From positions 21,783,168-21,847,167 of the forward strand of contig NC_092569.1 of the NCBI RefSeq assembly GCF_037975245.1: a stretch of 64,000 bases of DNA. The letters run 5' to 3'. How positions within the stretch are numbered: the first letter of the stretch is position 1; each line of letters opens with the position of its first letter. Positions 4,230-63,742 of the stretch are shown one piece after another. This stretch comes from Apostichopus japonicus. Lineage: Eukaryota; Echinodermata; Holothuroidea; Aspidochirotida; Stichopodidae. The notes under the pieces are model-generated. The model did not search any database. It saw only the letters and a program-made list of their open reading frames with translations, and was not told the DNA's origin. Position numbers and translations under genes: made by a program.

Positions 4230-4334
4230 GATGCTGGCCAGAAGGAGCGTGCCGTCAGTATATCACCCACACCTAAACATTTTAATGTATTGGGCAAATG
4301 TGACCATTTTATTTTGCCGTATGAGGACCCACTC

Positions 4335-25400: not shown

Positions 25401-28400
25401 AACTACCCCCTTGTTTTTTTTTACCCCAACTGACTATACTGTAAGTGTTTGTCTTAAATTGTAATTAATCAGGCCTCAAGATTCAAGTTATTTACCTGAA
25501 CAGTACTGGCTACTGTTAATGCCAACTGTGGGTATTCTCTCTTAGCCAGTTCTGTGGAATTTACCGTAATTAACATCACGTTTCACAGAAAACCATGCAT
25601 TATCATCGCAAAAAGTGGTCAGTGATGATGTCGTAAGTAAGGAGGAAGAGGAGGAGGAAGAAGCATATGAAGATGAAGAGGATGATGAGGAAGATGATGA
25701 GGAAGATGATGATGAGGATGATGAAGAGGATGATGATGATGAAGATGAAGCAATGCCACACAGCAGCGGTCATGAAGAGGTATATATAAACTGTAGAGAC
25801 CTGTAATACCACATTCCAAATATGTATATTGCAGAAAAGTCCTGATCATGCAAGTTGCCCATACATCTCAAACTGACTTACTGCATTTTTGTTTGTATTC
25901 TGAGACAATTAGAATTCCCCATGTTATGCACAGTTACTGTAGCATAGATACATTTCTCAAAAGCAGAATGGTGCACACTTTTAAGGCTTGTACATGGGTC
26001 ATTCCATGTCAAATCAACAGATTTTGGATAAGTTTGTAGTTCAATTTCTCCAAAAATCATCACCTTCTTGCATGATTAGAGCACCAAGATAGGACCTTAC
26101 AAAGTCACTTGGCCAGCACGTTACAAACTCTCAAACGGTCATTCATTGGACAGTTTTGAAGCAGTGTGACTTATGCTTTCTTCATGGTGTTATAATCATG
26201 CAAGGAGGGTGGTAAAAATGTTTGAGATGGTCTAGCAATAGCCATCTGTGGTTGACATGGAATGACCGATGAGTCGTGCTGAGTTGAACATTGTAATCCC
26301 CTTGAAGTAATGAGAAAGGTCACAAATGCAGGATGGTAGCAGTTAATACATTGTGTATGGTACTCTGCAATATATAAGTCTGGTATTAGTTATATATGTT
26401 ACAATCACCCTGGCAGAAATCATAATCATTGGATCATAACAACCTGTAGCAAAAGTACCTGGAATCAAGAGTACTTATCTACATACTGTATGTTATGAAA
26501 GGACACTAGCCTGATATTTGGTTGATGTCCATATTAGTAATTAATTCAATGTGTTCAAACCTGCAATGCCCTGTCTGCCATTTAATTATGTTCATGTGCA
26601 TAGTGTTTTTGCATAGGAGGATGGTGTGGGGGAGGGGACATGTGGGGTGGGGGGACATGTGGGGGAATATGTGGGGGCGACATGTGGGGTGAGGGAGAGA
26701 GGCAAGAGGAGTGCTCTTGAGTACATTGCTAAACACAACCAGTTGCTTTCAGCTGTCAGGTACTTTGTTCATTGCAGCCTGGCAGTGACAGCGGCACCAC
26801 AGCCTGTGTGGCCATTGTCAAAGGAAATGAAGTCATAGTGGCCAACATTGGTGATTCACGGTGTGTACTATCCAGGGACGGTGAGGCTGTGGACCTATCG
26901 GTGGATCATAAACCCGAAGATGAGGAAGAACTGCAGAGAATAGAGGAAGCTGGAGGGAAAGTAACTCAAGATGGAAGGGTCAACGGAGGCCTCAATCTCT
27001 CTAGAGCCTTTGGTAAGTTATCAGTACTTTTATCAAGACTACCCATTGAGGCTTTATTAGTACTACCCATTGCCCTGTTATGGGTCTGTATCAGTACTAT
27101 CTAGGCTTTATCAGTACTATCCAGGCTTTATCAGTACTATCCAGACTTTATCAGTACTATCTAGGCTTTATCAGTACTATCTAGGCTTAATCAGTACTAT
27201 CTAGGCTTTATCGGTACTATCTAGGCTTAATCAGTACTATCAAGGCTTTATCAGTACTATCTAGGCTTTATCAGTACTATCTAGGCTTTATCAGTACTAT
27301 CTAGGCTTAATCAGTACTATCTAGGCTTTATCAGTACTATCTAGGCATTGTCAGTACTACCTAGGCTTTATTAGTACTACCCATTGCCCTGTTATGAGTC
27401 TTTATCAGTACTAACCAGGCTTTATTAGTACTACCCATTGCCCTATTATGAGGCTTTATCAGTACTACCCATTGCCCGTAAGTTATGTAATTCATGTTTA
27501 TTCACAGATCTCATTAGCATATAAGTCACATAGTTGTACACCTTGCAAACAGTTGGTTATGGTTAATAGATTTAGTCTACCAGTAGACGCACATGAAGCC
27601 GGACTCCTTAATTCCTCAGGAGCATCTAGGTATGTGGCTTCATTTAATCGCCAACATAGTAAGAGTTACATTGGTAGTCGACAGGATGCAGACCGCTTTA
27701 CATCTTAACAGGTCACAGGATTAGAATTTCAAAATGTTAGCCACTTGATAACATGAGGCAAGTGCCTGAGTGCTTAAAATATCTATTGGCTAAAATCAAG
27801 TTATGTGCATTTTCCTGAAATACATCAAACATCAGACACTGCAGGCTTATAATGGAAGCAGCCCAATAATATTTCCGGGTAATAAGCGGTTCAACTAAAG
27901 GGCTTAGGCTAATATTACATATAAAGAAGTCATGGTTGGTTTGGACTGATGTATTTTACCACACTTATCATGTGTTTATGTTCTTAAAGCAGCATTTTGA
28001 GTTGGGTCGCTTTTTTCCACCTTTTTAAAATGTGGATCGATTTTTTTACATGTATCAATCATAAAACAGCAAACTAAGATACCATTCAAGTTTCACCCTG
28101 CCAAGAGCGTTAATTAGCGAGTAATTAACGATTTATATCGATAACGAGTAAAAGTGTCCTCGACAAAGTTTTCATATCTCCAAATCCACTAGTTTGAATT
28201 CCACCTATCAGTGAATAGTATGTTTATTCATGAGCATTTTGCGTTTAGTCGCCGTTTTCTACTTTTTTTGACATGTCCATCGAGTTTTTTACATACATCA
28301 AATCACAAAACAGCAACTTAAGATATTAGCCAAGGTTTTCCCTGCCAAAAACTTTAATTGGCGAGTATTCCACATACAAAATTAAATCACATTCAGTTCC

Positions 28401-31400: not shown

Positions 31401-34400
31401 GGAAGAATAATTTTTCACTTAGAAAAAGTACTGTACAGTTGTTTTTTTTTTCCCCCAAATCATACATCCAATCTAGTACTGTTCATATTCAGTATAGCAG
31501 ATTACTGTATGTGATTACTGTATTCAAACATGAAAAAACAATGTTAGTTTTCATGACATTAAAGGACTCGATGCTCTCATTGCATGCTTGTTTCCAACAG
31601 CAGACTTCATTAGTAAACATTTCACTTGTTTCAGTATTTTCCAAATTTTAATTGAGTACAACATCTATTGTTCAATTGTTAATTAATCCTGTGAGAGATA
31701 GTTTGACCTTCACCTCACCTTCATCACTCAGTCTGAGTTTGGACTATACAGTGGGTGAATCTTCAGCACTGCAGACATGTGCTGATGTATGTTACACTGT
31801 CTTAATCTATATGATGTTCCTTCATCCTACATTAGGAACGCCATGACTAGTCAAGAAGTCATAGACTTTGTTAAAGAGAGACTCGATGAAGGTGGCAAAG
31901 ATAACTTGTCGGGTATATGTGAAGAGGTAAGTCCTTAATCCCCCCCTCCCCCCTCTTTTTGTGGGGGAAGAATTGAACTGGACCGAATAAACAAAAATGT
32001 ATGGATTTTACAGACAGAGTTGGTATTGATCAATTTACTTCGCTCCTCGCTTACCTGTCTCCTCACAACCTTAGCACCTCGTTCTACAGTACCGCTTTTA
32101 AGTAAATTGGAAAACCGCGCTCTTAATCGCGCTCTGTGCGTTTAAACCGCGCTCTATCTTTTGTTAAAACCCGCATTGAAATGCAGTTAATTGCGGGGAA
32201 CTGTTTATCAGAGCGCAGATTCCGTCGGAAGGCTTCCCTAATTCTATTCACGCCAGCTAAAAGTGTGAAGTTCATTGTTACCGTCAGACGGTCAATGGCT
32301 GTAATCCTACTTAATTCCTTCCAATCCGGTAACAAAAGAATATCGATCGTCGCCGGTAGAAAGAAGACCGAGGGTTTATACTCGGTCAAGGGAAGGGATA
32401 GTGTATAAGCACGTATCTTATACTGTTTAAATTCAACGTACAATACAAATGTTCAAGTGGAAGCAAAACAGTTGGTTTGATGAGTGAAACGTTAGCAAAC
32501 AGAATTCCCGCGATTGCTGCGAACAATAAAAATTGCCGTTTAATATTCAAACAGTTCTCAACGTCAGTTCGGAAATAACAATATTCCTGAAAATTATTCA
32601 GGAATCATGATTTTTCCTAACACAGATTAAGTGAGAAAGCCGAATTGATCATTTCTCGAGGCTAGAACAGTACAGTATAATGTTCTTGCAAGTAATACGG
32701 GCTATTCGCGCACATGTTACATTACGGAACTGAGTTGGTACTCATTTGTATACTGCACTGAGACATTGCACGTTGTCACTGCCCTTGGAATTCTCAAAGT
32801 ATACAGCTTCTCGGGCACTGTTCAAAACAACACTGCAAACGTTTTTGCACGTTCTCATTTAGTATGCATGGGCCGATCCTACCTCTAAGCCTACATCGAA
32901 AGTTACGCCGTATACACCTCGCAAGAAAACCACGATAACCTTAAATGAAAAAACAATATTTTGCACTTAAAGATCTGACTTCCCTCAAAATGCAATGATA
33001 GGGTCTACCCCCAGTACTTCTTGATACATTGAGTTTCCAATTACTAGTCAAAAATATTTTCTGCAAAAAAGTACGATATTTTTCACAAAAGTTGATGATT
33101 AGATAAGTGCTTCCTCACAATCAACGAGCCGCCCCGAATTCGCTCCGCTTACGTAAAACTTCTATATATATTGCACGTGGAAAACCCGAGTTTTTACACA
33201 CAGAATTCCCATTGACATTGGTCACGGAACATAAGTAGGTCATCGACATTCGAACTTGGCAACTTGCCCAAGTTCATTGCACCATGGGAACGACACAAAT
33301 TGTACATGATTGTACATTTTCTGAAAAACGTACGATATTTTTCACAAAAATTGATGATTAGATAAGTGCTTCCTCACAATCAATGAGCCGCCCCGAATTC
33401 GTTCCGCTTACGTAAAACTTCTATATATATTGCACGTGGAAAACCCGAGATTTTACACACAGAATTCCCATTGACATTGGTCACGGAACATAAGTAGGTC
33501 ATCGACATTCGAACTTGGCAACTTGCCCAAGTTCATTGCACCATGGGAACGACACAACAAATTGTACATGATTGTACATTTTCCCGCCAGCTGGACGCCA
33601 AGTTATAACTTTTGGTGTAATATGCAAAGTATGAATGGTAGTGTACTGCGCGGTTAAAACTTAAACTATTGCGACACACACAAATTCTGTGTGTTGTAGA
33701 AGTAACTTTTGTATCAAATGTAAAGTACTGTATGGTAGGCCTACTATAATTTATAAAAGACGGTTTTCCTCAGGGGATAGGGAAAAGGGGTGTTTCGGTG
33801 AACTCGATCTCTTTGTATAATAATTGGATACTTAAAATGACCATGTACATGCAGTTTCTATTTCTCTTTAGTAAGCTCTAATCATCATTTTTATCCTTTG
33901 CGGATCTTTATTGGAATAAATTCGAAATGTATTACTTGACGCCAGTATTTAACGGTAAGCATTTCTTAAATTGTTGACAGAGCTTCAAAATCCATTTTCA
34001 AACAAGTCTGTTAATTTTCATGAAGGTTTTATAAAAAATCGACATACAGCTAGGGAACGAAAGCTGTTCTCTAGTATCCAAATAAAATACATGTTTCTCG
34101 TACTGAGATCTGAAAAAAACGGGCGGCCATTTTTCTTCATTTCATGCGCTGCTACTAGTTTGGAATATGTTCCAACCTTTACAAAATAATTTTTACGGAT
34201 AGTTTAGATTTCTTGTAATCCGAAAAGAAACTCGGGAATCAGGAAAAAAGAAGGCCCATCAATTGCGCGGACGAGAAACATGTTTTGAATTTAACCGGCC
34301 CTGCTTCAAATTTGTTGGGTGGAAATTCTTTTTTCTTTTCATTCTGCTAGAACCAATGGTAATTTATATAAAAAATTCACACAAGAAACGCTTAGTAACA

Positions 34401-36669
34401 CTTTATTATTTCTTCAAAATGTTGCCAACTATTTAAAGTAAACTTATCCTCCGTCATAACAGAAATAAGACCTGAAGTTGTGCTGTCGTCTCTTTCTGAA
34501 CAGGGAGATCCATGTGGTCTTGCCAGATATTTAATGCGTAAAATATTTACACCATATGAGGTTTTAAATTGTAATGTTAATGGGATTAAGAAAAATGCAC
34601 TTGATAAGGATAGGGTATTTGCAATTAGGAAATGTATTATGGAGCAGTTTCATGTACCACTTCACATTCAGAAAAGAGCTTGGGGACAGTGCGTTAAAAA
34701 GATGGACACAGCCAACAGAAATGCTAAGAGATACTTAGCAATGGCAGTCAAATCTTGAAGTACAGTATTTTTTGGTATATTCCATTTTCCTCTATTTTTT
34801 GTCATCATATATTTAAGTTATTCTTGATGTGAAACCTTTGAAGACTGTAGTAAAAAAGAACTACATGTTTATTTTGATCCCTTGCATGGTAATTTTAATA
34901 TTTTACTTATTGTATTTTTCAATGTTGTTGCCTTTGTAAGTGCAATGTTTCCTAGTCTAATAGACAGTGTGTTGCTTTTAGTTTGCTTTTCTAAGCGTGA
35001 CACTGTTGTACTGTTTTCTTTTATAGTATTAATTAATTTGCTTTGTGAGTGCAAAGCTTCCTAGCCTAATGTGTGCCTAACTTTTCTTTTAGCATTTTTA
35101 AAAGATTTACAGAAAATACAGACTGTTTGTTTCTTTTTAGCTTGCATTTCTAAGCTTTAACACTGTTGCATCATTATTCTCATTTTATAATAATTTGCTT
35201 TTTTTTAAAACAAGCATTTGTGCTTAGAATTCTTTTTCATTTTGGTTTCCAGGATATAACTACAATTATTCTCTTTTCAGCTCCTTTCAGTTAGTGACAA
35301 CCTTCGTATTCGTAAGCCTATGAACAGAACTCTATAAAAAATAAAATAAAATCAGTGCAACGTTTCCTGGCCTAATGTGCCTAAAGTTCACACAAAACGT
35401 GGGACCTAATGTTACTACTAAAAATGATATGTTACCCCGAAAGGATAAGGCACGAAGTTTCCTTCTTGCTTTTTATGGTAACCATAACATATCGGGGAAT
35501 AAAATAAAAACGTATAAAAAAAGGTTTTGCCCTTCAACACGAAACTATTCTCGTTTAAAACTTTCAGTCGAAGTCGTGAACTTCGTACTCGTACACTGGC
35601 CTAATGTGCCTAAACTCAACACAAAACGCGAGGCCTAATGTTACTACAAAAAATGGTCCGTTAATGCTACGGCCAAAGGATAAGACACGAAGTTTCCTTC
35701 TTGCTTTTTATTACTTCTGGTTACCAGAACATATCGGGGAATAAAATAAGGTTTTTAAAAAGGTTTTGCCCTTCAACACGAAACTATTCTCGATTAAAAC
35801 TTTCTTTCCGTCAAAGTTGGTAAACTTCGTTTAAAATTGTGATGTTTATAACAGGTGTTGGTTACAAGCGATAGGTTTACACTACCTCCACGCTATGAAT
35901 AGCGTTGTATCGATCGGTTCACTCCCATTGTGTCGGTGGTGAATAGCGAGCGAGGGGAATTCGCGTTCCTTTGTTTGGAACGCGGGGAAATCGCGTTCCT
36001 TTATTTGGAGCGCGGTTAAGTACAGTTAAGCTGCGTTTTGCGCTGAATCGCGCTAATCTCTTCCAATTTACTTAAAAGCGGTACTGTACCTATAAAGTCC
36101 TGGTAAAATAATATCACTGTGCGCCTTTTATGACCGGACCCCCTCCGGTCACTGCCCTTCCTTCTCATGAGACCACTACTTCTCATGAGACCACTCCTTT
36201 TCACCGACAGCACCATCATGCCTCTCCACACTTAGAGACAAATTGAGAGCTGTAATGATTGGAACATGTTTTTTACTGCAATGGATGATATTTTTACAGA
36301 CAGAAATTGCCATGGGTCACGTCTACACTCCAGAATTCATTTTAACACTGTACTTAAGGAACATTTGAGATGCTTACCTGTAGTTTAATGTCACAGACAT
36401 CATGGTCATCGTCATCCTCTACAAATCACTTGTATAAGTCTTCATCTGATGTGTTTTATTATTAATTAATGTGAACATTTGTGCCCCGTTTATTTCAGTT
36501 GTTTGACATCTGCTTAGCGCCAGACACCCAGGGAGATGGAACAGGCTGTGATAACATGACATGCATCATCGTAGTATTCAGTCACGACCAACTTGATCCG
36601 AGGGGAAAGAGGAAGGCCGAGACAGAGGAAGCAGCCGGAGTCCCCGAGAGCAAAAGACCAAAGCTTTAA
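13331..36669 (+). CDS. Protein phosphatase 1G (PPM family, Mg2+/Mn2+-dependent), 8 coding exons
   Basis: Coding exons, joined by eye with GT-AG borders: 13331-13441, 17049-17307, 21895-22362, 25589-25779, 26778-27012, 30532-30661, 31836-31926, 36499-36669. They add up to 1656 bases, 551 aa plus stop, with all phases matching; vertebrate PPM1G is about the same length. The protein starts MGAYLSHPN, then SAMQGWR, the metal-binding VYDGHGG (Asp57), and an acidic/low-complexity insert typical of PPM1G. GSDSGTT (~345-351), NIGDSR, DHKPED and [10 protein letters not shown] follow. VIACDGIW (~458-465) and GTGCDNMTC supply the remaining metal aspartates. The C-terminus is basic (KRPKL), like a nuclear signal. 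Known role: nuclear Ser/Thr phosphatase acting in splicing and histone exchange. No catalytic residue seems missing. Confidence 0.95.
14549..15308. mobile_element. Fold-back element with ends made of tandem CAAAACGTCCC motifs
   Basis: Left arm (14549-~14670) and right arm (~15200-15308) are inverted copies. Each arm consists of about six repeats of a motif like CAAAACGTCCCCGC with variable spacers, and both ends read CCAGTCAAAAC inward. The ~530-bp centre is AT-rich and non-coding. Long inverted ends built of short tandem repeats are the mark of Foldback-type elements. TA is present near both ends but a clean target duplication is not. It lies in PPM1G intron 1. Confidence 0.75.
15900..16273. 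mobile_element. MITE-like element with long imperfect terminal inverted repeats
   Basis: The ends share TTGGTTGGC, CTATCTTGGC and CAGAGTGCTCTA and stay similar for about 100 bp when one is inverted. Inside are a perfect palindrome (16031-16062) and two direct copies of GTTGTCTGATGAT-GCTCAATGC-TGAAACT about 72 bp apart. No coding capacity and no clear target duplication. It is in PPM1G intron 1. Confidence 0.65.
16031..16062. repeat. Perfect 32-bp palindrome
   Basis: ATCATCAGACAACTGA is followed at once by its exact reverse complement, with no loop. Part of it recurs as a direct repeat at about 16124. Confidence 0.9.
16510..16868 (-). mobile_element. tRNA-derived SINE, copy 1
   Basis: On the minus strand the head starts GGGCATTGTGGTCAAGTTG and has a tRNA-like A box (TGGTCAAGTTGTTAAGG). 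A good B box, GGTTCGAGCCC, follows at 16806-16816. The body contains GTGTCCTTGGGCAAGGCGC, a stretch seen in many invertebrate SINEs. It is the same family as the copy at 23329-23706. The 3' end is less clear here. Confidence 0.8.
17049..17307 (+). CDS. PPM1G exon 2: first catalytic motif
   Basis: It follows the acceptor TTTTATGCTTAG. It encodes [24 protein letters not shown] and the following helix ([11 protein letters not shown]), up to a phase-1 donor at GATGCAG|GTACTG. The DGHGG aspartate and glycine coordinate the catalytic metals in PPM phosphatases. Confidence 0.94.
17457..19554. mobile_element. Possible 2.1-kb element with CAGTGTRTAAATTTA ends
   Basis: Left end CAGTGTGTAAATTTA and right end TAAATTTATACACTG are inverse copies with one difference. 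Just inside both ends lie GGTCGTCC / GGACAACCAAAA words in inverse order. Only ATCA matches outside the ends, so a target duplication is doubtful. No transposase seen. It spans part of PPM1G intron 2. Confidence 0.4.
21895..22362 (+). CDS. PPM1G exon 3: non-conserved insert
   Basis: It begins after ATCACAG and encodes [20 protein letters not shown], a segment that also occurs in vertebrate PPM1G, then a Ser/Glu/Lys-rich, probably disordered stretch. It ends in phase 1 at GGAAG|GTGAGT. The frame continues into the intron for about 110 bases, which is not coding. Confidence 0.9.
22897..23755. repeat. Three ~160-bp tandem units, the third split by a SINE
   Basis: Units begin with TGTATGTTGATATA at 22897, 23058 and 23217. 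Each contains a CACAATGCTAGAT-like segment, AAATGGTCAAGT, CAAAGGTGTATAGCAG and TTTTCTACACAGGGACTACA. In the third unit the sequence after GGTGTAT is interrupted by the SINE and resumes with AGCAGTTTTCTACACAGG at about 23706. It lies in PPM1G intron 3. Confidence 0.9.
23329..23706 (-). mobile_element. tRNA-derived SINE, copy 2, with (ATT)n tail
   Basis: Same family and orientation as copy 1. On the minus strand it runs from GGGGGCGTTGTGGTCAAG through a decayed B box and ends GCGCTATATAAGAACTGAG followed by ATT repeats (23329-23350 on the plus strand). It sits inside a tandem unit whose neighbours give the empty site. Confidence 0.85.
24428..25441. mobile_element. TA-flanked element with CAGTATAGTCA ends and GGGGTAAAAAAAAACAA motifs
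   Basis: Left end CAGTATAGTCAAGTGGGG and right end CCCCAACTGACTATACTG are near-perfect inverse copies, continuing into (T)GGGGTAAAAAAAAACAA. TA lies directly outside both ends (24426-24427, 25442-25443), as in Tc1/mariner elements. Further copies of the poly-A motif occur inside at about 24645-24678, 25022-25072 and 25385. No transposase is visible. It is in PPM1G intron 3. Confidence 0.8.
25589..25779 (+). CDS. PPM1G exon 4: Asp/Glu-rich acidic domain
   Basis: The acceptor TTTCACAG is followed by a short neutral segment and then about 40 residues that are almost all Asp and Glu. It ends in phase 0 at GAAGAG|GTATAT. A long acidic run inserted inside the phosphatase domain is the hallmark of PPM1G. 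The GA-rich codons look like a microsatellite, but splice phases on both sides fit the neighbouring exons. Confidence 0.88.
25997..26267. mobile_element. Short MITE with GGTCATTCCATGTCAA ends
   Basis: GGTCATTCCATGTCAA at 25997-26012 is exactly inverted at 26252-26267. The 270-bp unit has no coding capacity. A target duplication is not evident. It is in PPM1G intron 4. Confidence 0.65.
26778..27012 (+). CDS. PPM1G exon 5: phosphatase core
   Basis: It encodes [44 protein letters not shown] and [20 protein letters not shown], the most conserved part of PPM1G. Acceptor CATTGCAG; donor TTTG|GTAAGT in phase 1. A 20-bp minisatellite begins only a few bases after the donor. Confidence 0.96.
27017..27475. 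repeat. 20-bp minisatellite next to a PPM1G splice donor
   Basis: The core unit is GGCTTTATCAGTACTATCTA, repeated about fourteen times with few changes (27087-27372). On both sides are looser copies joined to a longer unit containing TACTACCCATTGCCCTGTTATG. The array begins within about 10 bases of the exon 5 donor. Confidence 0.92.
27988..28794. mobile_element. TTAA-flanked non-autonomous element with internal ~250-bp tandem copies
   Basis: The ends AGCAGCATTTTG and CAAAATGCTGCT are inverse, with TTAA directly outside each (27984-27987, 28795-28798). TTAA targets are used by piggyBac and Kolobok transposons. Inside, two diverged direct copies (~27995-28235 and ~28240-28470) share GTCGC-GTTTT-CACTTTTT, CACTAGTTTGAATTC and AAACAGCAA words; a third begins near 28480. 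No transposase seen. Confidence 0.72.
29519..29920. repeat. Tandem duplication of a ~220-bp unit
   Basis: Two copies share TTTCTGGGACATA, GGTCATAATTTCT, CCTGTTGTTATTG, TGGACAACCAA-CACAAA and AAAATAATTAGTGAATGTGC. The copies differ by several substitutions and short indels, so the duplication is not recent. It lies in PPM1G intron 5. Confidence 0.8.
30016..30105. repeat. Repeat copy matching the target of the 4-kb element
   Basis: This ~85-bp stretch (GCTCCTCGCTTACCTGTCTC, CACCTCGTTCTACAGTGCCT, ATAAAGTCCTAGTAAAATAA) matches the DNA on both sides of the 4000-bp element at 32087-36086. Here the two halves are joined by CAGTG instead of the element. Confidence 0.8.
30532..30661 (+). CDS. PPM1G exon 6: catalytic DGIW motif
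   Basis: It encodes [20 protein letters not shown], then [20 protein letters not shown] and DGIW. The aspartate of DGIW is a metal ligand in the family. It starts in phase 1 after TTTTGCCAG and ends in phase 2 at ATATG|GTAATT. Confidence 0.95.
31836..31926 (+). CDS. PPM1G exon 7
   Basis: This 91-base exon encodes the W of DGIW plus [20 protein letters not shown] and [10 protein letters not shown], matching the C-terminal helix of the phosphatase fold. Acceptor CTACATTAG; donor GAAGAG|GTAAGT in phase 0. Confidence 0.93.
33061..33560. repeat. Tandem duplication (~258 bp) inside the 4-kb element
   Basis: The segment beginning GTACGATATTTTTCACAAAA and running through GATTAGATAAGTGCTTCCTC, GAGCCGCCCCGAATTCG, CACGTGGAAAACCCGAG and CATTGCACCATGGGAACGAC occurs twice in direct order with only a few differences. 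The near identity suggests a recent duplication. Confidence 0.9.
34504..34758 (+). CDS. BEN-domain exon within the 4-kb TIR element
   Basis: The frame encodes [40 protein letters not shown] and IRKCIMEQF, then [20 protein letters not shown] and a stop. The pattern (Leu/Phe helix, G-kk-aLd, I-k-c, W-qCv-kmdtanR) fits a BEN domain, a DNA-binding module of chromatin and transposon-linked proteins. A good acceptor (TCTCTTTCTGAACAG) sits directly before GGAGAT, so this looks like a terminal exon. The frame is open further upstream (to about 34459), but those residues look unrelated. No earlier exon of the same protein was recognised. It lies in the same orientation as PPM1G. It may be a captured host exon, part of the element's own gene, or dead. 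Confidence 0.6.
   Translation, partial: GDPCGLARYLMRKIFTPYEVLNCNVNGIKKNALDKDRVFAIRKCIMEQFHVPLHIQKRAWGQCVKKMDTANRNAKRYLAMAVKS
35368..35825. repeat. Second tandem duplication (~230 bp) inside the 4-kb element
   Basis: Copies start GGCCTAATGTGCCTAAA at 35368 and 35598. They share ACCTAATGTTACTAC, AAGGATAAG-CACGAAGTT, ACATATCGGGGAATAAAATA and AACACGAAACTATTCTCG. A shorter related motif (GTGCAA-G-TTCCTAG-CTAAT) recurs near 34940 and 35048, so the whole right half is built of related repeats. Confidence 0.82.
36499..36669 (+). CDS. PPM1G exon 8: last metal ligand and C-terminus
   Basis: It encodes [20 protein letters not shown] and [11 protein letters not shown], then a charged tail ending ESKRPKL and a TAA stop. 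The CDN aspartate (~513) is the final metal ligand. The basic tail resembles a nuclear localisation signal. Confidence 0.95.
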
Positions 36670-52033: not shown

Positions 52034-54139
52034 TTAGGTTGGTTTTATCTTCATTGTTGTCTGCGTTACGTCGCATTCACTTGTCAGTTGATTCTTGTCA
52101 TAAAGGCAAATACCGTCGTCCGACTGGTCTCCGTATCGACCGTTGAGGTTCAAGGTAGTGCAATTATTAAACCACCATCCACTTTCATAGATATTTGCAC
52201 AGCCGTCAGCGATATTGTTGTCATTATCTTGGTCATAGGTAAAGAAGTTCATACCTTGGTGGTACCTCATGTAATCGTATTCTATCAACCAAGAATAAAG
52301 AAATAATAAGTCACTTTGAAAATTAAGACAAGAAAAGAAAAGAACGACTGTTACTTATGCGATTACAAAACAAGTTGCAACTTATTAAAGAAACCAACAG
52401 TACAGACAGCAACCTCATGATTGGTATCATATTATTATCTTCTACGTTGCTCTAGTTACATCCGTGTTCAAAACAGTGATCAGATTGATTAAGCAACCAT
52501 TTTATACCATAGGTCTTTCTTACATGAGTAGGATCATCACGTTATTTTGACTTTTAGGCAGTTAAAAATTGATGTGTTTACATACCAAAACTTCCTGAGT
52601 ATTTCCCAAGTGATTCCAGTCTGTATTTGCTCTCCTCATTACCAATGCGGAAATTATCATAGTGTAGGCTCTCGTTGATAGTGATGGATATAACTATTTC
52701 AATCAGAAGCTGGTATTCCCTTTGATTAGAAATTACATGTACTTTGTCGTTTCCGAGCCAAAAGCTTCCCATTAGATCACCAAAGCCATTCTTGTAGCTA
52801 TTCCAATCTCTGAAAAAGCCACTGGAATCATTAATTTGGCGCTGAAATATCTGCAAACGAAGAAGCAATATAGTAACAGAAATTAATTTAACAACATTAA
52901 ATCGTACTTTCTTTGCCCACAAGAAAGAAGAACATTTTGTTTGTTGCAATACTGTTTCATCATTATTTGAAGCAAGGCATGAAATGATTACTTACTGTTA
53001 ATTAATTGAATGAGTTTAAGTAATTTCTCACACTGAAATATTGCTTATTCACATGTATGGTTTGCTTGTTTATATTATTATTTTAGTTTTATGTATCGTC
53101 AACATGGGCTGTAAATGTTATTAAAAGCCTTGTTTTTTAGTGTTGGGGAGTTCGATAAGTTGGATTTCCGAATTGTCGGCTTGGAGGCAGGAGCCAATGG
53201 GAAGGGTAGTTACCCTCCATTTTGAGAATTGTTTGTTCCAATAAGGTGCCTAAATGAGAATTGGTGCAATATTTTTCAATTTGCAAAAATATTTATTATG
53301 AAGAAATTTCAATATGTCATTAGATCTGTCAGTAAGACTGCCAGATGCTAGTGTCAGATGTACAGTGCCGATAGAGGGCGTTTCTCTTTATTTTTGCTAC
53401 GCATTGTTGAAGTGGTGGACTACTGGGTTGGGTAATTGTCTGGTACGTAGTAGTTGGTTGGCATGAGGCATGATTGCATAGTTTACAGTGATTTAATAGC
53501 ATACATGACATATTGTTGACGCAGTACCTGCATGGATATTTTCCATATAACGGGACAACCATTTGTTTATGTAAGAACGATTCAAAATAAAACGCATATA
53601 AAGTATATAAAACATCCACTGTAACTTCTATCTAGAAGCATTGACAGAAACAAACGACAATAACTGATTTCAACAGCTGCTGCATTGAATGTTGTAAACT
53701 GTTTGCCCACGGTAACGGCAACAATGTAAATATGCAACGCAAGACCATTTGAATCAATTTATCCCTGGTCCACTACTTAATTGAATTGATAAAACTTTTG
53801 ATTTTTGATCATATTGATTCAACCTAATTGAATTAATACATGACTCACCGTCCATCCTTCCTGACAATAAACGTCAAACGGACCATACGGCCATGAGATT
53901 GGCTCAATCGTGTACACACCATTATTGGTATATCCACTGTCGTATACATCCTGGCAATCTCTAGGTACTTCACATACAGTGCCATTGCCCATGTAGGACT
54001 GTATACAGATACAAACACTGCCAAACGTCTTTCGTACGCATCTTGCATGAGAACCACATGAATAGCTTTCGCAGGATAAAATGTCATCTTGACATGAGCA
54101 GCGCATCGTGCAGTCATCATTTATATATGACGTTCCATT
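52034..54139 (-). CDS. Unit 3: EGF domain and fibrinogen C domain (exons 14-16), C-terminus
   Basis: Exon 54139-53849 encodes NDDCTMRCSCQDDILSC, a six-Cys EGF and RDCQDVYDSG...VYCQEGWT. Exon 52850-52586 gives IFQRQINDSSGFFRDW and GSFWLGNDKVHVISNQ. Exon 52281-52034 gives FFTYDQDNDNNIADGCANI, GWWFNNCTTLNLNGRYG and ends IKPT with TAA. It is the most diverged unit, and its Ca2+-site region reads YDQDND instead of YDRDND. Confidence 0.88.
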
Positions 54140-57100
54140 CTTTGAAAAAAAAATGAGATAAAACGAAGGTAGTCTGACCTCCTGAAATTATATCACAATG
54201 AGGTGATTTATAAATTGACTTTGAAGAAGTTAATTGAATGCAGTATATTTGTGAGCATATATATGTATATTATAGGAGAAACCATGAAAGCAAACTCAAT
54301 GTACCAAAAACCAATATTCGAACGCATATCCTAACTTTTATATCATATTGTTGTCTTTACTTTCTGCAAAATTGCTGAGAAATTACCGGAATCACACCAA
54401 CATGTTGTTGATAGCATCCGCACTCTTCCTGTTGAACACAGTCTTCTCCCTTCAGCAAATACCCATCTGAACAAATACATGAGTAACCAGAGGCGCAGTT
54501 GTTATAACAACCGTACATCCCGGTTGGGTCATAGCAAGTGGCCTGACAGGAGCAATTCTGCCACAGAGTGTTGATTGGACATGTAGCTACATAAATGGGG
54601 TATAAATGGCAAAGAGTATCCTCTCATTCATCGGCGAGAAATGAATAACCATTCAAAATCATGAACACAATCATCTGGAGTAGTCGTCATTTATTTATAA
54701 ATTTAAACTAGATATTAATCACAGTCCTCTTTCCTACATACTTTTGGTTAAGATAGACTAATCAACAGTAAACCTGCAAGGATTAACGAGTGTAAGCAAC
54801 CGACAGTCTGTATAGTACATTAATATGTCCAGGTACGTTAGCAGGTACCGTTAACCACTTTGTACATTCCCTAAATGTTCCGAAACAATAACCAGACTAG
54901 AAAATCTGAAGTTTAGAAATGTATTTAGCAAACGTTCTGTGACTTGACAGATGTGACATTATGCGACATGCTGCAAATACATTGAGACGGCTCCAAAATA
55001 CTATGATAATGTTTTTGATGTAGATATTACATTGTTGACCCATTTATGTGGATATTATTTTCTTCGGTTGTACACTACTTTACACACTTGTTCAGTATAA
55101 TTCCAAGGTCGCAATTTTCACACTTTGTGGGTGCTTTTATTAGATTGTTTGTTCGCACAATAATGGGAAACAGCAATTTATGTACAGAGGAAAACCACAA
55201 ACAGATAACTTTAGTTGGCATAAATTAAAAACAGCATATCAACATTCAGGATGCTAAGCCATTCATGGAAACATAAGGCCTGAAACTTCACTTTTGCACT
55301 GTTCAACGTACGGCACGATTGATGTCATCGTGAAATTTATACCGTGAGAAAGTAGTATGGAACAATGGAAAGCCATCGAAAGTGAAAAAGAAAAACAAGG
55401 AAACACCTCTGTAACTTTGCTAAGTAAGACCTCTATCACCGATGAGAAAATGTTACATTATGTTACCATAGGAACCACTTACCACCTAGTGGTGACGTTG
55501 TTGTTGACTTCTCGACTAGTTCACCCACTGGTTTAATCTCCATCTTCGTTTTGGAGATGTCACATCGTACAGTACCTGCTTCTTTTCTGTTGTGCATGCA
55601 GATACCAGTATCCCATGGATCACCGTACTGACCATTGAAATTTACTTCATAACAATACGTGTACCACCAGCCACCTTTATGGGAAATTGCGCATGAGCCT
55701 CTTGATAGTTCATCGTTGTCGCGATCATATGTTGAGAACTTCTGATGACGATGAAAGTCCATATAATCATATTCTGCAGAATGAAAGAAACCATGCTATA
55801 TAACATAAGTTTTGTTTTATGTTTGCACGACGTTTACATCTCTAGATTAAAGATTTGTCATGAACGGTTCAGAGAATTGAAATCAGCTTGAAACATGTAT
55901 TTTAAATGACCAAAACTTACAATGGAATGACATTTACAAACCTACATAAGCATAACAACATGCTATCATAATATCTATTCACCGAGCTTACGTAGATTAA
56001 TGTTCGCACTAAACTTGCTGTTATCGTTTTAGAGAACGGGATTTCGTATGAGTGGGGTAGGTGGTGGAATTTTTTACAAAAATATGACACTACACAAGAA
56101 TTTGTAACACAATTTATGTGGGCACATCATACTATAGGGAACACGTTCTGATGGCCTTAGTCAGGTGCATTTTCCACACTGGTTATCTCTCTATGTAGGT
56201 GTTAACACTGATTTTAGGGCTACAGAACAGTGTTTGAGTTAGGTATACAGGTAATTAGAGAATAGTCAAAATCACATCAGAAGTGAAGAAATTAAACAAC
56301 CCGTATGAAACTAAAACACAACAGTGAATAGGTGGTAAACGAAATTTACCTGTATTAGATTTAGTTGTTAATAAATCGCAACGCAGGATCAAACAAGTTA
56401 GTACAACTACATATATATCTCTTAATTATGAAATGTTTTCTTCATATTGCAACCTTTACTGGCCCCGAAGTTACATACCCAAGCTGCCATTGTAGATGCC
56501 GAGACCTTCTAACATGAATTCGGTTTCTTCATCTTCAATCCAAAAGCGGTCATATTCCAAAACGTCGCTTTCACCAGAACTATAGAACAAACTAACTTTC
56601 AGCGCGTAATGTCTTTGATTTGATATGTAATGAACCTTTTCATTTCCTAGCCAAAATTCCCCACTCAGATTACCAAATCCATTGGTATAGTCATTCCAAT
56701 CACGATAAAATGAGACTGAACCATTGAAACGATTCTGGAACACCTTTGACAAAAAAAGTTAGAAAGATACGGTACGGTATCTGTCTATAAATATATCACA
56801 GATTGTTTTCTTCACATTCAGTTCAATATAATTCAAACCATTACATTCACAAGTATCGTTATACACCTGAAATTAAAGGACTGAATACTATTTCAATGGT
56901 ATGGCAGTCTAACACACTGTTAGTCATCACGATCGACAAATATCCCGGCAATGAGGAAAACCCAACAGTGATATCTTTATGATATATAATAATAAGAAAA
57001 TAGTTTTCCTTTCTGTACCCCTTTAATAAACCATTTCAAGGTTGAAGACTAAAGGGATCTTGAAAAAAGTAAACATTTTTGCGATATGTTCTCACATTTT

Positions 57101-60100
57101 TAATCGATCTTTACTCACAGTACTCGAGATATTGTCAAAGTTTCCGTCACAAAAGTTCTGAGATACTTACAGTCCAACCATCTTCGCAATAAACCGGAAA
57201 CGGATTATGAGGCCAAGATCCTGGGTAAATCTTGTAAACGCCTTCTTCTCTGGACAAATTGTTGTAAATATCCTGACAATCTCGTAACGGTGTGCACTTC
57301 GAACCATCTCCCATGAATCCTTCATTACAAAAGCAGGTCTGATTGGCACAGGAGGTACTGTCATTACATTGAGAATCTTGGCAACTGTGATCTTCTCCGA
57401 AACATGTACAGTTAATTGCACCATAAGAGAATTAGATCGTCAAGTTTAAAGATGAAGGAAACAAGAGATGGAAGGAATTTTTTTTTTGTGAAAGATATCC
57501 GATGAAAAAAAAAATTTCACGATCATCAATAAAACAAATAAAAACACGTCTTAAAGCCACCAATATAATTTCCAACACTATTGTTTAACAAGATGTAAAT
57601 TTAAATATTTTGAATTGACGTTAATGAGTTGAATTAAGCAAAATAGTTAAAGCTTGATGAATTCATTATGCAGTGATGAATACTTTGTGCCAGTCATGTG
57701 ATCATGTAGAGTTGTGAGAACAAATGATGTAATTCATTTTTGAGTGCTATAAAATCCCCGAGGTATTTCAAAAAGTACAAAGTATAATGATTTAAATATT
57801 ATGTGACACCTTTTGGCCATTTTAACACGTATTCTGTTTCTTCATTATATACTTTATTTTTCAATATGTATTCATTATTATACTAAATTGGACGAAGATG
57901 TCGGTACTTTCAATGCAATTCAAACCAGCGCTGCAATGATCTTAATTATTAGATGATGTTTAGGAGGTGATACTTATTGCATTAAATTTTAAAGGGACGA
58001 ATCGTGATGAAGAACTGCAAGATAGCTACATGTTCGTTATCGTCACTGGCGAAAGACATAATGACCAACACTAGGGTGACCTGCTTATGTAATCGCTATG
58101 TTAGTTTTTATCATTCAGATATCGAGCAAGCAGGCTAATTGTCAATATATGACAATAATTTAACACTGACTTGGAATTGTGCTGCTGCCTCTCTTTCTCT
58201 GATACGTGCACTGCTAATGTTCGATGACCCTTTCACAAATGCTTATGCCAATGGAATTATAGTTCCATCAGATGCTTTAAATGATACCATCTTACCAACT
58301 TGTCCTGACACTGTAGTGGTCTTATCAGACGGTTTGATTTTCATTGTCGTCATGGTGATATTACACAGGATGGTATTATTTTCTTTCAAGTCGTGCATAC
58401 AAATGCCAGTATCCCAGGGATCTCCGTACTGACCGTTGAAATTGACTTCATAGCAATGGTTAAACCACCAGCAACCCTTATGGGACGTAGCGCATGAGTC
58501 CCCGGATAGGTATTCGTTATCGCGATCATAGGTTGAGAATTTCATTTGACGATGAAAATCCATGTAATCATATTCTGCGGAAGGGAACCAAATTATTACA
58601 TTTCATGAGCATCTCCAATAATTTAAAGGAACAAAAATTCAGCCTATAACATACATGTGATATGTACATAATATTATACAAATTGTCAACACACAGATAA
58701 ACCTTTTGCAAGTGGAATGTTTAATTTGATTCAAACGTAATAATCGAGAACTAAATTTACCTCCAGAATTAAAACGTTAATTATTCCCTCCATTTGTGTA
58801 ACAAATGTTTCCAGCTTCATACATATCTTAGTAGTGTTGCACTCTGGTTTCGAAAAAACCTATTTGAAAGGGAATGCAGTGCGAATTTTCTTTATGAATT
58901 CTTCACCCCTTTTAGGCGCACAATTTAATCAATTTAGTTCATATAGGATCGAAAAATAACTATAGGTCTTCACGACGCTCGATTTAATAGCCTGCGAAAA
59001 TGGTTGATGAAAGTGAAAACTTAACATTCGAAATTGAGGTCATTATAAAATATTCTGCCTTTTCAGATCAGAAATTTATCTTTAAAGTTGTACTTTACTT
59101 CCTTTTCCTGTGTGTAATTACTGCCCAATTTGAACTAACTGTTGAAAAATGGAGTATGTACACCAAGACTATTCGGAGTCCTAATATCAGCATAGTGCAT
59201 AATGATAAAATGTGAAGAATTGGTAGTTTATTCAGTTTGTGTACATAGCTAATTTTGAATCCATTTGTTGGTTCCTTTATTTCCAGTCCCGTTTTGCTTG
59301 GTCTGATAAATATATTAGAAACTTACTAACACTTTGTTATCGTATTATTCATTTCGCCAGAAAGCTTGGTAACCACAAACAATTTGAAAATCAAGACAAT
59401 TGGAATAACGTTGTAAAATTAATATCCTGCGATAGCAGTTGATCAGTATGCGTACCAGAACTGCCAGTGTATTCTCCAAGGACCTCTAACTTGTATTGGG
59501 TTTCCTCTGTCCCTATCCGAAATGGGTCGTACCGAAAGTATCCGTTTTCACCGGAAGTAAACTTGAAATTCATTTCCAGCATGTAATCACTTTGACTTGT
59601 TATGTAATGCACCTTTTCATTCCCGAGCCAAAATTCACCGTTCAGATTACCAAATCCATTTCTGTATGTATTCCAATCACGATAAAACGAGACTGAACCG
59701 TTGAAACGATGTTGAAAAACCTTTAAGAACAAGACAGCGAAAGTATTGTAATTTAATTCTCAGTTGTATATATGTTATTGTTGATAGTTTAACGGACATT
59801 TATCAGTATGATGTCTTTTAAATTAAAACTTAAATGATAACCTTACTCAGTGTATTAGTATTGATACTTCATATTAGAAGGAAAAAAAAAAGTTAAAGCT
59901 GAGTGCTAGAAAAGTCTCTATTACTATTGAGGTTTCCAAGACATTCAGCAGAATAATTTGTTATAAAATCTAGAATGTCGATTACAGCTAACTAGATGGT
60001 GGCGTCGAATCCTAAGTGCAGAGCTAGCTGTTAATGTTATACCATTGTTTACATATGTTAATAACTCAAACCAAACATGTTCTTGTAACTTTTATATAAA

Positions 60101-61822
60101 CAAACGATTGGATGATATTCAACACAATTTGTACTTGTCAACTTTGTAATGTGCTGTAAACATTTCACTTGCGATCTTGAAAACATTATGTTTTTTATTG
60201 AAGTTTGTGTTGCATTTTAGAAAGGGACGTTGCACAGAGTATTGGACTTTGGACTTGAAACTAAAAGTATAATGGAACTACATAATGGACTGATAGCAGG
60301 GTCTTTCGACGGTGTACAACATAATAAAATGAATAAATATATTTGTTTTTTGGGTTCATCCTCTGAAATATTGGAAAGTTTCTCACATACACGACTACGA
60401 TTGCGTCTGTTTTTTTTTTATACCGAAGTTAGGCAATACTACTAGTTCCGATAGTCAACAAAAAAATATTTCACATAATTATATAGCATAGTTCCAAATA
60501 CTTGTTAACATAATTAATGGAAGTAAACTTACAATCCAACAACTTTGGCAATAACGTGAATAAGATTATGCGGCCAAAAGACCGGATTTTTATTACTGTT
60601 TCTTCAGCATATTTACAATAATGTTTTAAGATAATAAAACATGATCACTTACAGTCCAACCATTTTGACAATACACCAGAAATGGATTATGAGGCCAAGA
60701 GTCTGGGTAAATCTTGTAAACGCCTTCTTCTCTGGAAACATTGTTGTAAATATCCTGACAATCTCGTATTGGTGTGCACGTCGAACCATCTCCCATGAAC
60801 CCTTCATTGCAATGACAGTGTTCTATACCAGATTGGCTTACACAGGTTGCATTAATACCACAGGAAAAGCTTTGACAGGACAGTACATCATCATGACACG
60901 TGCAATGTTCGGTACAGTTTGCTGTTATCAGAGATATTCCATTCTGAAAAGTAAAAAATAAAACATTTTACGTTTCTCAAAATATAGTATATGTACGAAA
61001 GATCTGCCGTGTGTTCACTTTGATAAAATCCAATCCTTGGCATTGAATCAGAAACGTCTAATAGGAAACTCTGCAACAAATTAATTACACGATTTCTTAT
61101 GGCTTAGCAACAGAAAGTAAGTTCATGTTCTTAATTCGGGATAAACCTCAAGCTGAGCTTTATCTTGTATAATTTGGAGAAGATTAGTAATAAAGATATA
61201 AAAAAGATAGCTATGTCCAGTCGAATTGACGATGTAGAAAAGTACCTTTTGTCGTAAGTAGACTCACCGGTACAACACCGTATACGTGATGATAGCAACC
61301 GCATTCTTCACGTGAGATGCATTCATTTCCTTTCAACATGAACCCATCAGGACAAATGCAACTTTGAGCTCCAATACAGTTGTTGTAACAACCATACAAT
61401 CCAGTAGGATCGTCGCATGTCACCTGGCAGGAGCAGTTTCTCCAAATAGTATTCACAGAACATTGTGATTGAGTTGTAGACTCTGCATTGTTCAAGAAAG
61501 GGGATACGTGATGGTGAAATGGTATGAAGCATAAAAACAACATTGATGGGTAAACGTAGGAACGCAAAAATGTAAAATATGCAAGGATCAATGTTCCATT
61601 CTGATATATACCCAAATAACACTACGAGGAAAACTACAATTGATACGGTAAAATGTGGACATAAGCAATTGTTAACATGATACAAAAAAGACAACAATGA
61701 AGGCTCATAGCGAGGAAAACTCAGTGAATTTGTAACTGACACTTCTCACAAAATTTCTGATGTGACGCAAACGTGCGGTGGGTACTGCATTAGAAATGGG
61801 TTAAATAAATGAATCCTCATCA

Positions 61823-61866
<44 letters not shown>

Positions 61867-63742
61867 TTATTATATTTTATATATATCAGACGTGGGATTT
61901 ATCTTGATTTTAAACATCTACTACATTTAAACGTGAAAAATATACAGTTCTTTCAAGTTATAATTTTAAATGGAGTGTGTCAATTATTTAATAGTTACCT
62001 ATAGTACTTCCTTTCGTGACTGGTCTGGTTGCCAATGACGCTTTTGAAGTTTCCCTACCTGTCAAAGCAAGATCTCAAAAAATTATTAGAATACATTAAC
62101 CCTGATATTTATTAATTTATTCCACGACAAACGTTGGCGTTATCTTGATTACTCAAAATTTATCATATTTATATATGAAAAATGTGCAATTCTTTCAAAT
62201 TAAATTTCAAATGGAGTCAGTTATCTATATGTTACCTATAGTAGTTCCTCTCGCGATTAGATTCGTTTCCGATGACGACTCTGGCGTTTCCCTACCTGTC
62301 AACAAAAGATCGCAAGATTATTATAGAACATTAATCCTGGTAATTATATATTTATTTGACAACAAACGTGGGAATAATCTTGATTATTCAACATTGATTG
62401 TATGTTTAACGTTAAAAATCTACAATATTTCTAATTGAATTTCCAGTTAAGTCAATTATCTTTATGTTACCTATCGTAGCTTCTTTCGCGATCAAATTCG
62501 TTTCTGATGACGACTCTGACGTTTCCCTACCTGTCAACGAAAGATCACAAGATTATATTATACTGTCACACTAAAGCTACTTTCGTCTTTAAGATGTAAT
62601 TAAAGATACAATATTACACCAGTGGGTATTTTCCCAACCATTCCTCGCAGTCATAAAATTAAATCTCGTTTGTTCATCATCAATTAAACAAATAAAATGC
62701 TGTTAACAGTATTTAATATTTCTATTACACGAATTCTAATTGATTTGGTAAAATGTCGAACCGTGCTGGAATATCGTCCAATGTATCAGATTTGGCACGT
62801 AGCATTATCATAAACAGTAAAGAAAAAAAAACACATATGTATCATGGAGTGGAAATGGTTGCAGTTGATCTACTGGTAGTTTTCACGAGTGAAGTTGCAT
62901 CTAAACACAAAATTGAAGTAAAATTATGATACATTGCATATCAGTTACGCTGAGCAAATCCCTGATTATGATAGCTTAAAGTTGTAAAGCAAATAGTTAT
63001 GTGGGACGTTACAGTGTCCGGATTTAACGTTTTAAGCTTGTGAGACTCAATTAATATAGCTGGATTATTTAGCCTAACACATACGGTCATGTCCCCAGAT
63101 GCAACATAAACGTCAATATAACATCATATAACATAGGCTACATATGAGGCGTTTTAACAAATTTATCAAGAAAAAAAAAGAGTAACTAAACTTGTAATAT
63201 TATAACAATTTCGTAAGGCACTATACAGTATTCATTATGACATATATAATCAATAAAAACCTTAGTACACTCTTTGAACGTTCTACTGTTACTTGAGCTT
63301 ACACATTTTGAAATAGAAAGAACAGATTAAAAGACTGCGATATGTTTTATGATGTCGTTTTTTATACTGTTAGTTACTCACCCTGCATACTCTCGGTAAA
63401 TGCCTGCGTACCACAATCATCTTTGCACAACGATATATCTCTGCCTTGCCCAGCGTTGGTACACTTGAAAAAACCTAAGAAAAAATCTTTGCTCAAGCCT
63501 GAGTACTTTTTATCGCAAAAGTGAATTAAGATAGCACACCATTGTCTGAAATCAACATCTTTGGCAGTTCATAAATCAAATTATATGCTATAATACAAAC
63601 CAAAAGCCAAAAAAAAATATATATATATATATATTAATACAAGACAACAAGAAGCATTCTTACCCACAGCAAGCACTTTACAATTAGGCGATAAGAAACA
63701 AATCAGAAACAGAAACGAGAATAGCAGGTTTATCTTATCCAT
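52034..63742 (-). CDS. Secreted TIL/EGF/fibrinogen-domain protein with three fibrinogen C domains, 16 exons
   Basis: Exons (minus): 63742-63664, 63474-63382, 62530-62471, 62295-62236, 62058-61999, 61482-61268, 60943-60653, 59720-59456, 58574-58296, 57394-57171, 56743-56479, 55773-55483, 54586-54387, 54139-53849, 52850-52586, 52281-52034. They total 3186 bases, 1061 aa, with every phase matching. Order: signal peptide (1-26), short Cys-containing part (~27-57), three Ser/Thr-rich repeats (~58-117), TIL (~118-189), EGF + FReD 1 (190-467), EGF + FReD 2 (468-727), TIL (728-794), EGF + FReD 3 (795-1061). FReDs keep the family's WTVFQ-R-NGS, FWLGNEKVH and NFNGQYG blocks and a Ca2+-site-like YDRDND. 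No membrane segment follows the signal, so it is likely secreted. FReD proteins often bind sugars or act in immunity, clotting or matrix; the role here is inferred only. The exon 10 start is the least certain join. Confidence 0.88.
54387..54586 (-). CDS. Exon 13: second TIL domain
   Basis: It encodes CPINTLWQNCSCQATC, YDPTGMYGCYNNC and CICSDGYLLKGEDCVQQEEC, ending VGVIP, clearly a paralogue of exon 6. Phase 1 in, phase 0 out, the same as exon 6. Confidence 0.86.
55483..57394 (-). CDS. Unit 2: EGF domain and fibrinogen C domain (exons 10-12), no TIL exon
   Basis: Exon 57394-57171 encodes SCQDSQCNDSTSC, CFCNEGFMGDGSKC, RDCQDIYNNLSREEGVYKIY and CEDGWT. Exon 56743-56479 gives VFQNRFNGSVSFYRDW and GEFWLGNEKVHYIS. 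Exon 55773-55483 gives KFSTYDRDNDELSRGSCAIS, GGWWYTYCYEVNFNGQYG and a linker VGELVEKSTTTSPLG. The homologous acceptor used in units 1 and 3 is absent here (the site reads TTATGG at about 57425). The acceptor TTTCGGAG at 57395-57402 restores frame with exon 9. Confidence 0.82.
58296..60943 (-). CDS. Unit 1: EGF domain and fibrinogen C domain (exons 7-9)
   Basis: Exon 60943-60653 holds an EGF domain (SCQSFSCGINATC, CHCNEGFMGDGSTC) and the start of the FReD (RDCQDIYNN, EGVYKIYP, VYCQNGWT). Exon 59720-59456 holds the middle (VFQHRFNGSVSFYRDW, GEFWLGNEKVHYI). Exon 58574-58296 holds the end (FSTYDRDNEYLSGDSCATS, WWFNHCYEVNFNGQYG). The usual GGWW is GCWW here, adding an unpaired-looking cysteine. 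A linker SDKTTTVSGQVG follows. Confidence 0.88.
60533..60623 (-). pseudogene. Relic of an EGF/FReD-start exon inside intron 7
   Basis: The 90 bases resemble the 3' half of exon 7 about 120 bases away: TCCAAC-A-TTTGGCAATA, GATTATGCGGCCAA-AG and TTCTTC...ATTTACAATAAT on the plus strand align with the real exon, and the splice donor GGATT|GTAAGT is kept. The reading frame is broken by a stop (TAATAA) and indels, and the 5' half is not recognisable. It records an extra, decayed cassette copy. Confidence 0.75.
61268..61482 (-). CDS. Exon 6: first TIL (trypsin-inhibitor-like) cysteine-rich domain
   Basis: It encodes STTQSQCSVNTIWRNCSCQV, then TCDDPTGLYGCYNNC and CICPDGFMLKGNECISREEC, ending GVVP. 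The spacing of about ten cysteines and CICPDG-ml-g-eCi match TIL domains as found in von Willebrand-type proteins. The exon enters in phase 1 and leaves in phase 0. Confidence 0.85.
61826..61878. repeat. (TTA)n microsatellite in intron 5 of the fibrinogen gene
   Basis: About fourteen TTA/ATT units, interrupted once by TTTTTA, followed by a short TATATAT stretch. Confidence 0.9.
61999..62530 (-). CDS. Three tandem 60-bp Ser/Thr-rich exons
   Basis: Exons 62530-62471, 62295-62236 and 62058-61999 are each exactly 60 bases, phase 1 at both ends, and begin GTAGGGAAAC after a TTGACAG or similar acceptor. Each encodes 20 residues of the type GRETSESSSETNLIAKEATI. The third copy is the most diverged. 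Introns between them are also similar. The segment looks like a flexible, possibly O-glycosylated linker between the N-terminus and the first TIL domain. Confidence 0.88.
63664..63742 (-). CDS. Fibrinogen-domain gene exon 1: signal peptide
   Basis: The first ATG of the open frame gives MDKINLLFSFLFLICFLSPN followed by CKVLAVG: a basic start, a hydrophobic core and a likely cleavage after VLA. The donor GTGG|GTAAGA leaves phase 1. No clear TATA box was seen in the ~250 bases upstream. Confidence 0.85.

Follow-up and report, generated by a model that had tools for sequence, protein, structure and literature searches.

A fibrinogen-related domain (FReD) occurs once per chain in FIBCD1, ficolins, tachylectin 5A (TL5A), tenascins and angiopoietins, which differ in their N-terminal parts, such as the collagen-like region of ficolins and the fibronectin III repeats of tenascins. 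In many FReD lectins, avidity arises when chains oligomerize through collagen or coiled coils. In gel-forming mucins of the von Willebrand factor (VWF) type, the TIL and TILa modules are preceded by VWD and C8. Here, we analysed a stretch of 64,000 nucleotides from the sea cucumber Apostichopus japonicus (RefSeq assembly GCF_037975245.1, contig NC_092569.1, positions 21,783,168 to 21,847,167; hereafter the window), in which a predicted gene on the minus strand would encode a secreted protein whose three FReDs sit in repeated cassettes of TIL, TILa, EGF-like and FReD modules. The FReD genes of A. japonicus were reported in 2017 to be greatly expanded, tandem and clustered (PMC5638244). The gene probably belongs to this expansion, and the available text of that paper mentions no TIL, EGF or multiple FReDs per chain. 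Chains with several FReDs have been described in other animals. The sea star skeletal protein PMI_010282 of Patiria miniata has four FReDs (PMC5460417), and Anopheles gambiae fibrinogen-related proteins (FREPs) were predicted to have two or three, mostly incomplete, fibrinogen (FBG) domains (PMC1242226). The likeness of PMI_010282, also an echinoderm multi-FReD chain, is one of description; TIL and TILa are not mentioned for it, nor TIL-TILa-EGF for the mosquito proteins, in the accessible parts of these sources. In the open-licence literature searched, neither the TIL-TILa-EGF-FReD unit nor its triple chain was found in print, which is weak evidence of absence. The FREP expansion in A. japonicus and multi-FReD chains in sea star and mosquito were already known; the three-cassette TIL-TILa-EGF-FReD chain is apparently new.

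The gene runs from 63742 to 52034 of the window. An earlier note on this DNA had claimed 16 in-frame exons, and the model held: the spliced length was 3186 nt, encoding 1061 amino acids with zero internal stops, all introns (15/15) were GT-AG and the exon phases agreed throughout. The exon boundaries were chosen by hand, so that the GT-AG and phase agreement is fitted and is not independent evidence. From the stop-triplet frequency in the window (0.058), the naive chance of 1061 stop-free codons was approximately 10^-27, with exon choice ignored. The exons (E1 to E16) are as follows, with phases given as start-end.

63664..63742, minus strand: E1, putative signal peptide exon (MDKINLLFSFLFLICFLSPNCKVLAV), donor GTAAGA, ending in phase 1 (hydrophobic run and simple filter)
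63382..63474, minus strand: E2, short Cys exon (GFFKCT...CKDDC) after the signal peptide, phase 1-1 (gene model)
62471..62530, minus strand: E3, Ser/Thr-rich repeat 1, phase 1-1 (gene model)
62236..62295, minus strand: E4, Ser/Thr-rich repeat 2, phase 1-1 (exon plus intron a tandem unit of ~236 bp, 80% identity with unit 1)
61999..62058, minus strand: E5, Ser/Thr-rich repeat 3, phase 1-1 (unit with ~70% identity to the other two)
61268..61482, minus strand: E6, TIL of cassette 1, phase 1-0 (Pfam TIL 25.8 bits, cut-off 24.5)
60653..60943, minus strand: E7, TILa, EGF-like and start of FReD1, phase 0-0 (Pfam TILa 33.7 bits, cut-off 27; EGF_3 24.5 bits, below its cut-off of 28.5)
59456..59720, minus strand: E8, FReD1 middle exon, phase 0-1 (gene model, Pfam)
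58296..58574, minus strand: E9, FReD1 end exon, open beyond the KP motif, with GTAAGA as phase-1 donor and no stop
57171..57394, minus strand: E10, EGF-like (six Cys) and start of FReD2, without TIL and TILa, weak acceptor
56479..56743, minus strand: E11, FReD2 middle exon (gene model, Pfam)
55483..55773, minus strand: E12, FReD2 end exon, open beyond the KP motif, with GTAAGT as phase-1 donor
54387..54586, minus strand: E13, TIL of cassette 3 (Pfam TIL 28.1 bits, cut-off 24.5)
53849..54139, minus strand: E14, TILa, EGF-like and start of FReD3 (Pfam TILa 35.1 bits, cut-off 27; EGF_3 19.9 bits, below cut-off)
52586..52850, minus strand: E15, FReD3 middle exon (gene model, Pfam)
52034..52281, minus strand: E16, FReD3 end exon, KPT followed by TAA, like the end exons of the family

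The domain content was determined with a Pfam scan of the predicted protein, run in three pieces. Fibrinogen_C was found three times with E-values of 2.9e-51, 5.9e-50 and 1.5e-49 (174.8, 170.6 and 169.3 bits against a cut-off of 22), which places the product among the FReD proteins. Cassettes 1 and 3 contained TIL, TILa and Fibrinogen_C, and cassette 2 contained Fibrinogen_C without TIL or TILa. The EGF_3 matches of cassettes 1–3 (24.5, 11.6 and 19.9 bits) were all below the cut-off of 28.5, which the paralogue at locus L014 exceeded (30.3 bits); the EGF-like stretch of cassette 2 retains six Cys. The proposed order TIL-EGF-FReD, EGF-FReD, TIL-EGF-FReD was thus right in its three FReDs and in its two TIL domains, none of them in cassette 2, while both TILa domains had been overlooked and the EGF assignments stay below cut-off. 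A single chain with a signal peptide, three Ser/Thr repeats and three FReDs in repeated cassettes was likewise supported by the predicted gene model and Pfam. The Ser/Thr stretch was 38% Ser plus Thr, its three exons lying on tandem units of ~236 bp that were 70–80% identical. The predicted chain including its leader had 70 Cys, 19 N-glycosylation sequons, a mass of ~121 kDa and a pI of 4.7. Adjacent TIL and TILa are shared with VWF and mucins, in contrast to VWD and C8, neither of which was found in the Pfam scan. Unlike ficolins and tenascins, the protein had no collagen-like region or fibronectin III repeats in that scan, and the immunoglobulin superfamily domain that stands beside the FReD in molluscan FREPs was not found either (no Ig family by Pfam). 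Exon queries gave no match in the 8 kb past the window, upstream of the gene (L001), and a gene extending farther upstream was rejected.

Genome searches with single exons (TIL, FReD end, FReD middle and EGF-FReD start) returned at least 150 scored matches each. Among the matches listed, the window's chromosome (C9) held 128 of 150 TIL matches, at least 34 of which had a FReD-middle match no more than 8 kb downstream. We studied 32 paralogue loci, picked for having matches (L002–L014 and L016–L034; L001 and L015 are flanks). All four exon types were present in 27 of the 32, including L034, and one locus (L028) had in-frame stops in several exons. The exon order TIL, TILa-EGF-FReD start, FReD middle, FReD end was found in cassettes 1 and 3 of the gene, with cassette 2 lacking TIL and TILa. 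The paralogues sit in tandem arrays of single-cassette genes; in the array at 21.02–21.18 Mb, TIL exons were spaced 8 to 21 kb. Same-strand pairs of FReD-middle exons less than 4 kb apart were limited to the two intervals of the window and one pair on C17 (216 distinct places, among the matches listed). The extra FReD of L014 was absent among these matches, so further multi-cassette cases may be missed. The TIL-TILa-EGF-FReD cassette is the standard building block of a large tandem family, in which the triple chain looks exceptional. The idea of TIL-EGF-FReD as a stand-alone architecture was not supported by this comparison, and multi-FReD chains have precedents.

The N-terminal exons were searched for in the same way. 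An E2-like exon preceded TIL in two of eight single-cassette loci (L006 and L008) and in none of eight reverse-complement controls; the motif pattern had been composed after these two loci were seen, and the underlying matches were weak (E 0.005 and 0.012). At genome scale, the E2 query matched only E2 itself, and the Ser/Thr exon query matched two places only, both within this gene. In one of the eight loci (L006), a Ser/Thr-rich frame (41% Ser plus Thr) runs directly into TIL.

Several other loci have unusual arrangements. At L014 (3311–7127; C20, ~22.63 Mb), a partial FReD with start and middle but no end exon lies in phase with a TIL-TILa-EGF-FReD cassette, the junctions being placed by eye; it reads as a second two-FReD arrangement in the genome. 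Around it on C20, four TIL matches lie ~20 kb apart, of which one locus was read. At L034 (1576–6826; C20, ~32.56 Mb), five near-identical TIL matches in a row are followed by one EGF-FReD. The FReD exons of L013 (C17, ~14.74 Mb) are tandemly duplicated at 3006 bp, with ~2 kb near-identical. The C17 pair was accordingly rejected as a multi-cassette gene and taken as this ~2 kb duplication, which sets the FReD-middle exons 3006 bp apart.

The first two FReDs of the gene differ from those of the family in how they end. Among the paralogues, 25 FReD end exons had a readable KP-type motif (the pattern admits KS as well, as in L026), and in all of them a stop followed within two codons of it; six motif-less end-exon matches were set aside (L009 second, L013 twice, L016, L028 first and L029). 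E9 and E12 were open for 28 and 21 codons beyond the motif, with the phase-1 donors GTAAGA and GTAAGT inside that stretch, so that the FReD does not end the protein there. Since a unit running from TIL to the FReD end starts and finishes in phase 1, joined copies stay in frame. In 12 paralogue loci (L002, L005, L007, L018, L023–L028, L031 and L033), the terminal stop was observed inside a donor-like word (for example, TTGTGAGG or GTGTAAGA) in phase 2, which is not the phase of the TIL acceptor. This pattern may be due to chance.

Since paralogues form tandem arrays of single-cassette genes, we considered that two or three neighbouring genes had been wrongly merged, or that a second start lies before cassette 3. 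The gaps between the cassettes are only ~0.9 kb, and a start-like exon may lie as far as ~2.9 kb before TIL, as in L008. With a simple filter for a signal peptide plus a phase-1 donor (no predictor was used), none of 11 ATG frames of at least 20 codons in the gaps passed, and E1 did. One near miss in the gap before the second TIL (MPTKVICLWFSSVHKLLFPIIV..., 55075–55221, minus strand) had 11 of 18 hydrophobic residues, a longest run of 9 (10 required) and a phase-1 donor-like word at codon 33. The earlier note had named several genes, or stops at the junctions, as what would speak against its model; the continuous phase, the passage of FReD1 and FReD2 beyond the usual stop to in-phase donors and the short gaps oppose both. 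From the phase, missing stops and short gaps, separate genes are unlikely, and we consider a wrong merger or a second start highly improbable.

Cassettes 1 and 2 are under purifying selection. The ratio of nonsynonymous to synonymous substitutions (dN/dS) between them was 0.23, at a dS of 0.90 over 254 codons, which indicates that both were maintained as protein for long. Their FReD-start exons shared a 166-bp stretch with 91% DNA identity, compared with 75% and 81% in two other matching stretches, and this may stem from gene conversion. Trees were constructed with the three cassettes and 26 paralogue loci, leaving out L010 and L028 (stops), L004, L012, L013 and L015 (missing exons) and L034. 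In the concatenated tree, cassettes 1 and 2 were sisters (support 100) and formed, with the single-cassette loci L002, L003 and L016, a group that left out cassette 3 (89), which points to a fusion of neighbouring genes from different sublineages as the origin of the gene, and not to internal copying of a cassette. All six together, cassette 3 included, received only 67. Against such a fusion, all three cassettes grouped together in the middle-exon tree (0.785), and cassettes 1 and 3 did so in the TIL tree (0.55). We regard the two sides as evenly balanced; the question concerns the past of the gene and not its product.

The closest relatives of FReD1 in the PDB by sequence were FIBCD1, tenascin-R, MFAP4, angiopoietin-1 and ficolins. 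At the place of the FIBCD1 calcium ligand Asp393, all three FReDs had Asp, and at that of Asp395, FReD1–3 had Glu, Asp and Asp. The acetyl pocket of TL5A is formed by Tyr210, His220, Tyr236 and Tyr248, according to the available part of the source (PMC1242226). Counting from two conserved Cys, the place of Tyr210 was taken by His, His and Tyr in FReD1–3, and that of His220 by Tyr, Tyr and Thr. No FReD of the three keeps both of these residues, which are the two of the four that were placed. The FReDs are thus alike by sequence to those of FIBCD1, ficolins, TL5A, tenascins and angiopoietins (as compared for FReD1), with the tested acetyl-pocket residues altered.

The gene can be placed in a large tandem family of secreted FReD proteins built on the unit TIL-TILa-EGF-FReD; ahead of this unit, at least some members have a short Cys exon and a mucin-like stretch rich in Ser and Thr. 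In ordinary members, a single cassette is closed by a stop. In this gene, two FReD end exons lack that stop and run into phase-1 donors, which would bring three cassettes, the second reduced to EGF-FReD, into one chain; this works because the cassette starts and ends in phase 1. We hypothesize that, read as a single transcript, the gene would yield a soluble or mucus-borne lectin-like protein, in which an O-glycosylated stem carries the three FReD heads with Cys-rich modules between them. Weak ligands that recur on microbes, damaged tissue or matrix would be held with avidity by the three heads, of which the third would have a different pocket, and weak, altered single sites may be made useful by linking three of them. 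We assign a probability of about 0.6 to a multivalent secreted lectin-like protein from a fused-cassette member of the family. The expression papers concern other members of the family: in holothurian coelomic fluid, FReD proteins were listed for the extracellular fraction, one FREP of Holothuria glaberrima increased in the intestine after lipopolysaccharide (LPS), and A. japonicus FREPs increased during visceral regeneration (PMC5638244), as far as the available texts of these sources go. For that reason, an immune or tissue role of this gene is one that we infer.

Several points weigh against the multivalent lectin-like protein. The gene model is a prediction from reading the DNA alone. Its weakest junction is the acceptor of E10 (tacatgtttcggag): its counterpart in cassette 1 is a longer exon, whose upstream portion is still readable before E10 (FSYGAINCTC), but no AG precedes that open stretch. 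AATAAA words occur in both gaps between cassettes, making shorter transcripts possible, and the near-miss frame is a possible alternative start for cassette 3. The E2-like exon was not found by the motif scan in six of eight single-cassette loci. Against cassette 3, dS was saturated, giving no dN/dS there. With the tested pocket residues altered, a canonical acetyl pocket, and with it a classic acetyl lectin, is not predicted. Finally, the P. miniata four-FReD protein may be cleaved into single domains, as its authors suggest in the available text (PMC5460417), and similar cleavage here would abolish the multivalency.

Some of these points also fit a gene with several isoforms: one with a single FReD by read-through of the E9 donor, one with two FReDs by skipping from E9 to E13, and the full three-FReD form. 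The phases of E9 and E13 are compatible, so that the whole of cassette 2 could be skipped with the frame kept, and read-through at E9 or E12 would end at a stop located 28 or 21 codons beyond the KP motif, with AATAAA available in both gaps and a weak acceptor at E10. The strong GTAAGA and GTAAGT donors and the conservation of cassette 2 relative to cassette 1 (dN/dS 0.23) argue for the full chain instead, and we think a mixture of isoforms rather unlikely.

The TIL-TILa and Ser/Thr-rich stretches are reminiscent of mucins, and the same gene may have a mainly structural role in matrix, mucus, adhesive secretion or ossicles, in place of that of an immune lectin. The altered acetyl-pocket residues are consistent with this, as are, in the accessible parts of the sources, the abundance of FReD proteins, including the one with four FReDs, in sea star and brittle star skeletons (PMC5460417) and the regeneration response of A. 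japonicus FREPs noted above. It is opposed by the holothurian FReD proteins of the extracellular coelomic fluid fraction, by the FREP response to LPS and by the missing VWD and C8 in the Pfam scan. We hold a mainly structural role as a tentative alternative, with the odds against it, and favour the lectin-like protein.

Elsewhere in the window, a retrotransposon of LINE type was observed at 2820–7247 (plus strand). Of its two long open frames, the first had a GDSL esterase domain, along with weak matches to PHD and zinc knuckle, and the second had endonuclease and reverse transcriptase. A PP2C protein phosphatase exon was located at 26733–27101 (plus strand; Pfam PP2C 107.5 bits), and an acidic open frame without a Pfam match at 21759–22472 may be part of the PP2C gene. 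At 34399–34755 (plus strand), a BEN domain match scored 28.9 bits against a cut-off of 23.2.

A wider and doubtful extension of the lectin-like reading is that the chromosome is a factory of phase-symmetric cassettes, joinable by the loss of a stop and the use of a donor. Holothurians would thereby build oligovalent FReD lectins in one chain, and not via collagen or coiled-coil oligomers, and this gene would be an old, selected case whose third head has a different pocket. Three FReDs on one chain in a mostly single-cassette family would offer a natural comparison of one head with three heads within one animal. Symmetric phase together with stop loss would be a simple route for a tandem gene family to longer recognition proteins.

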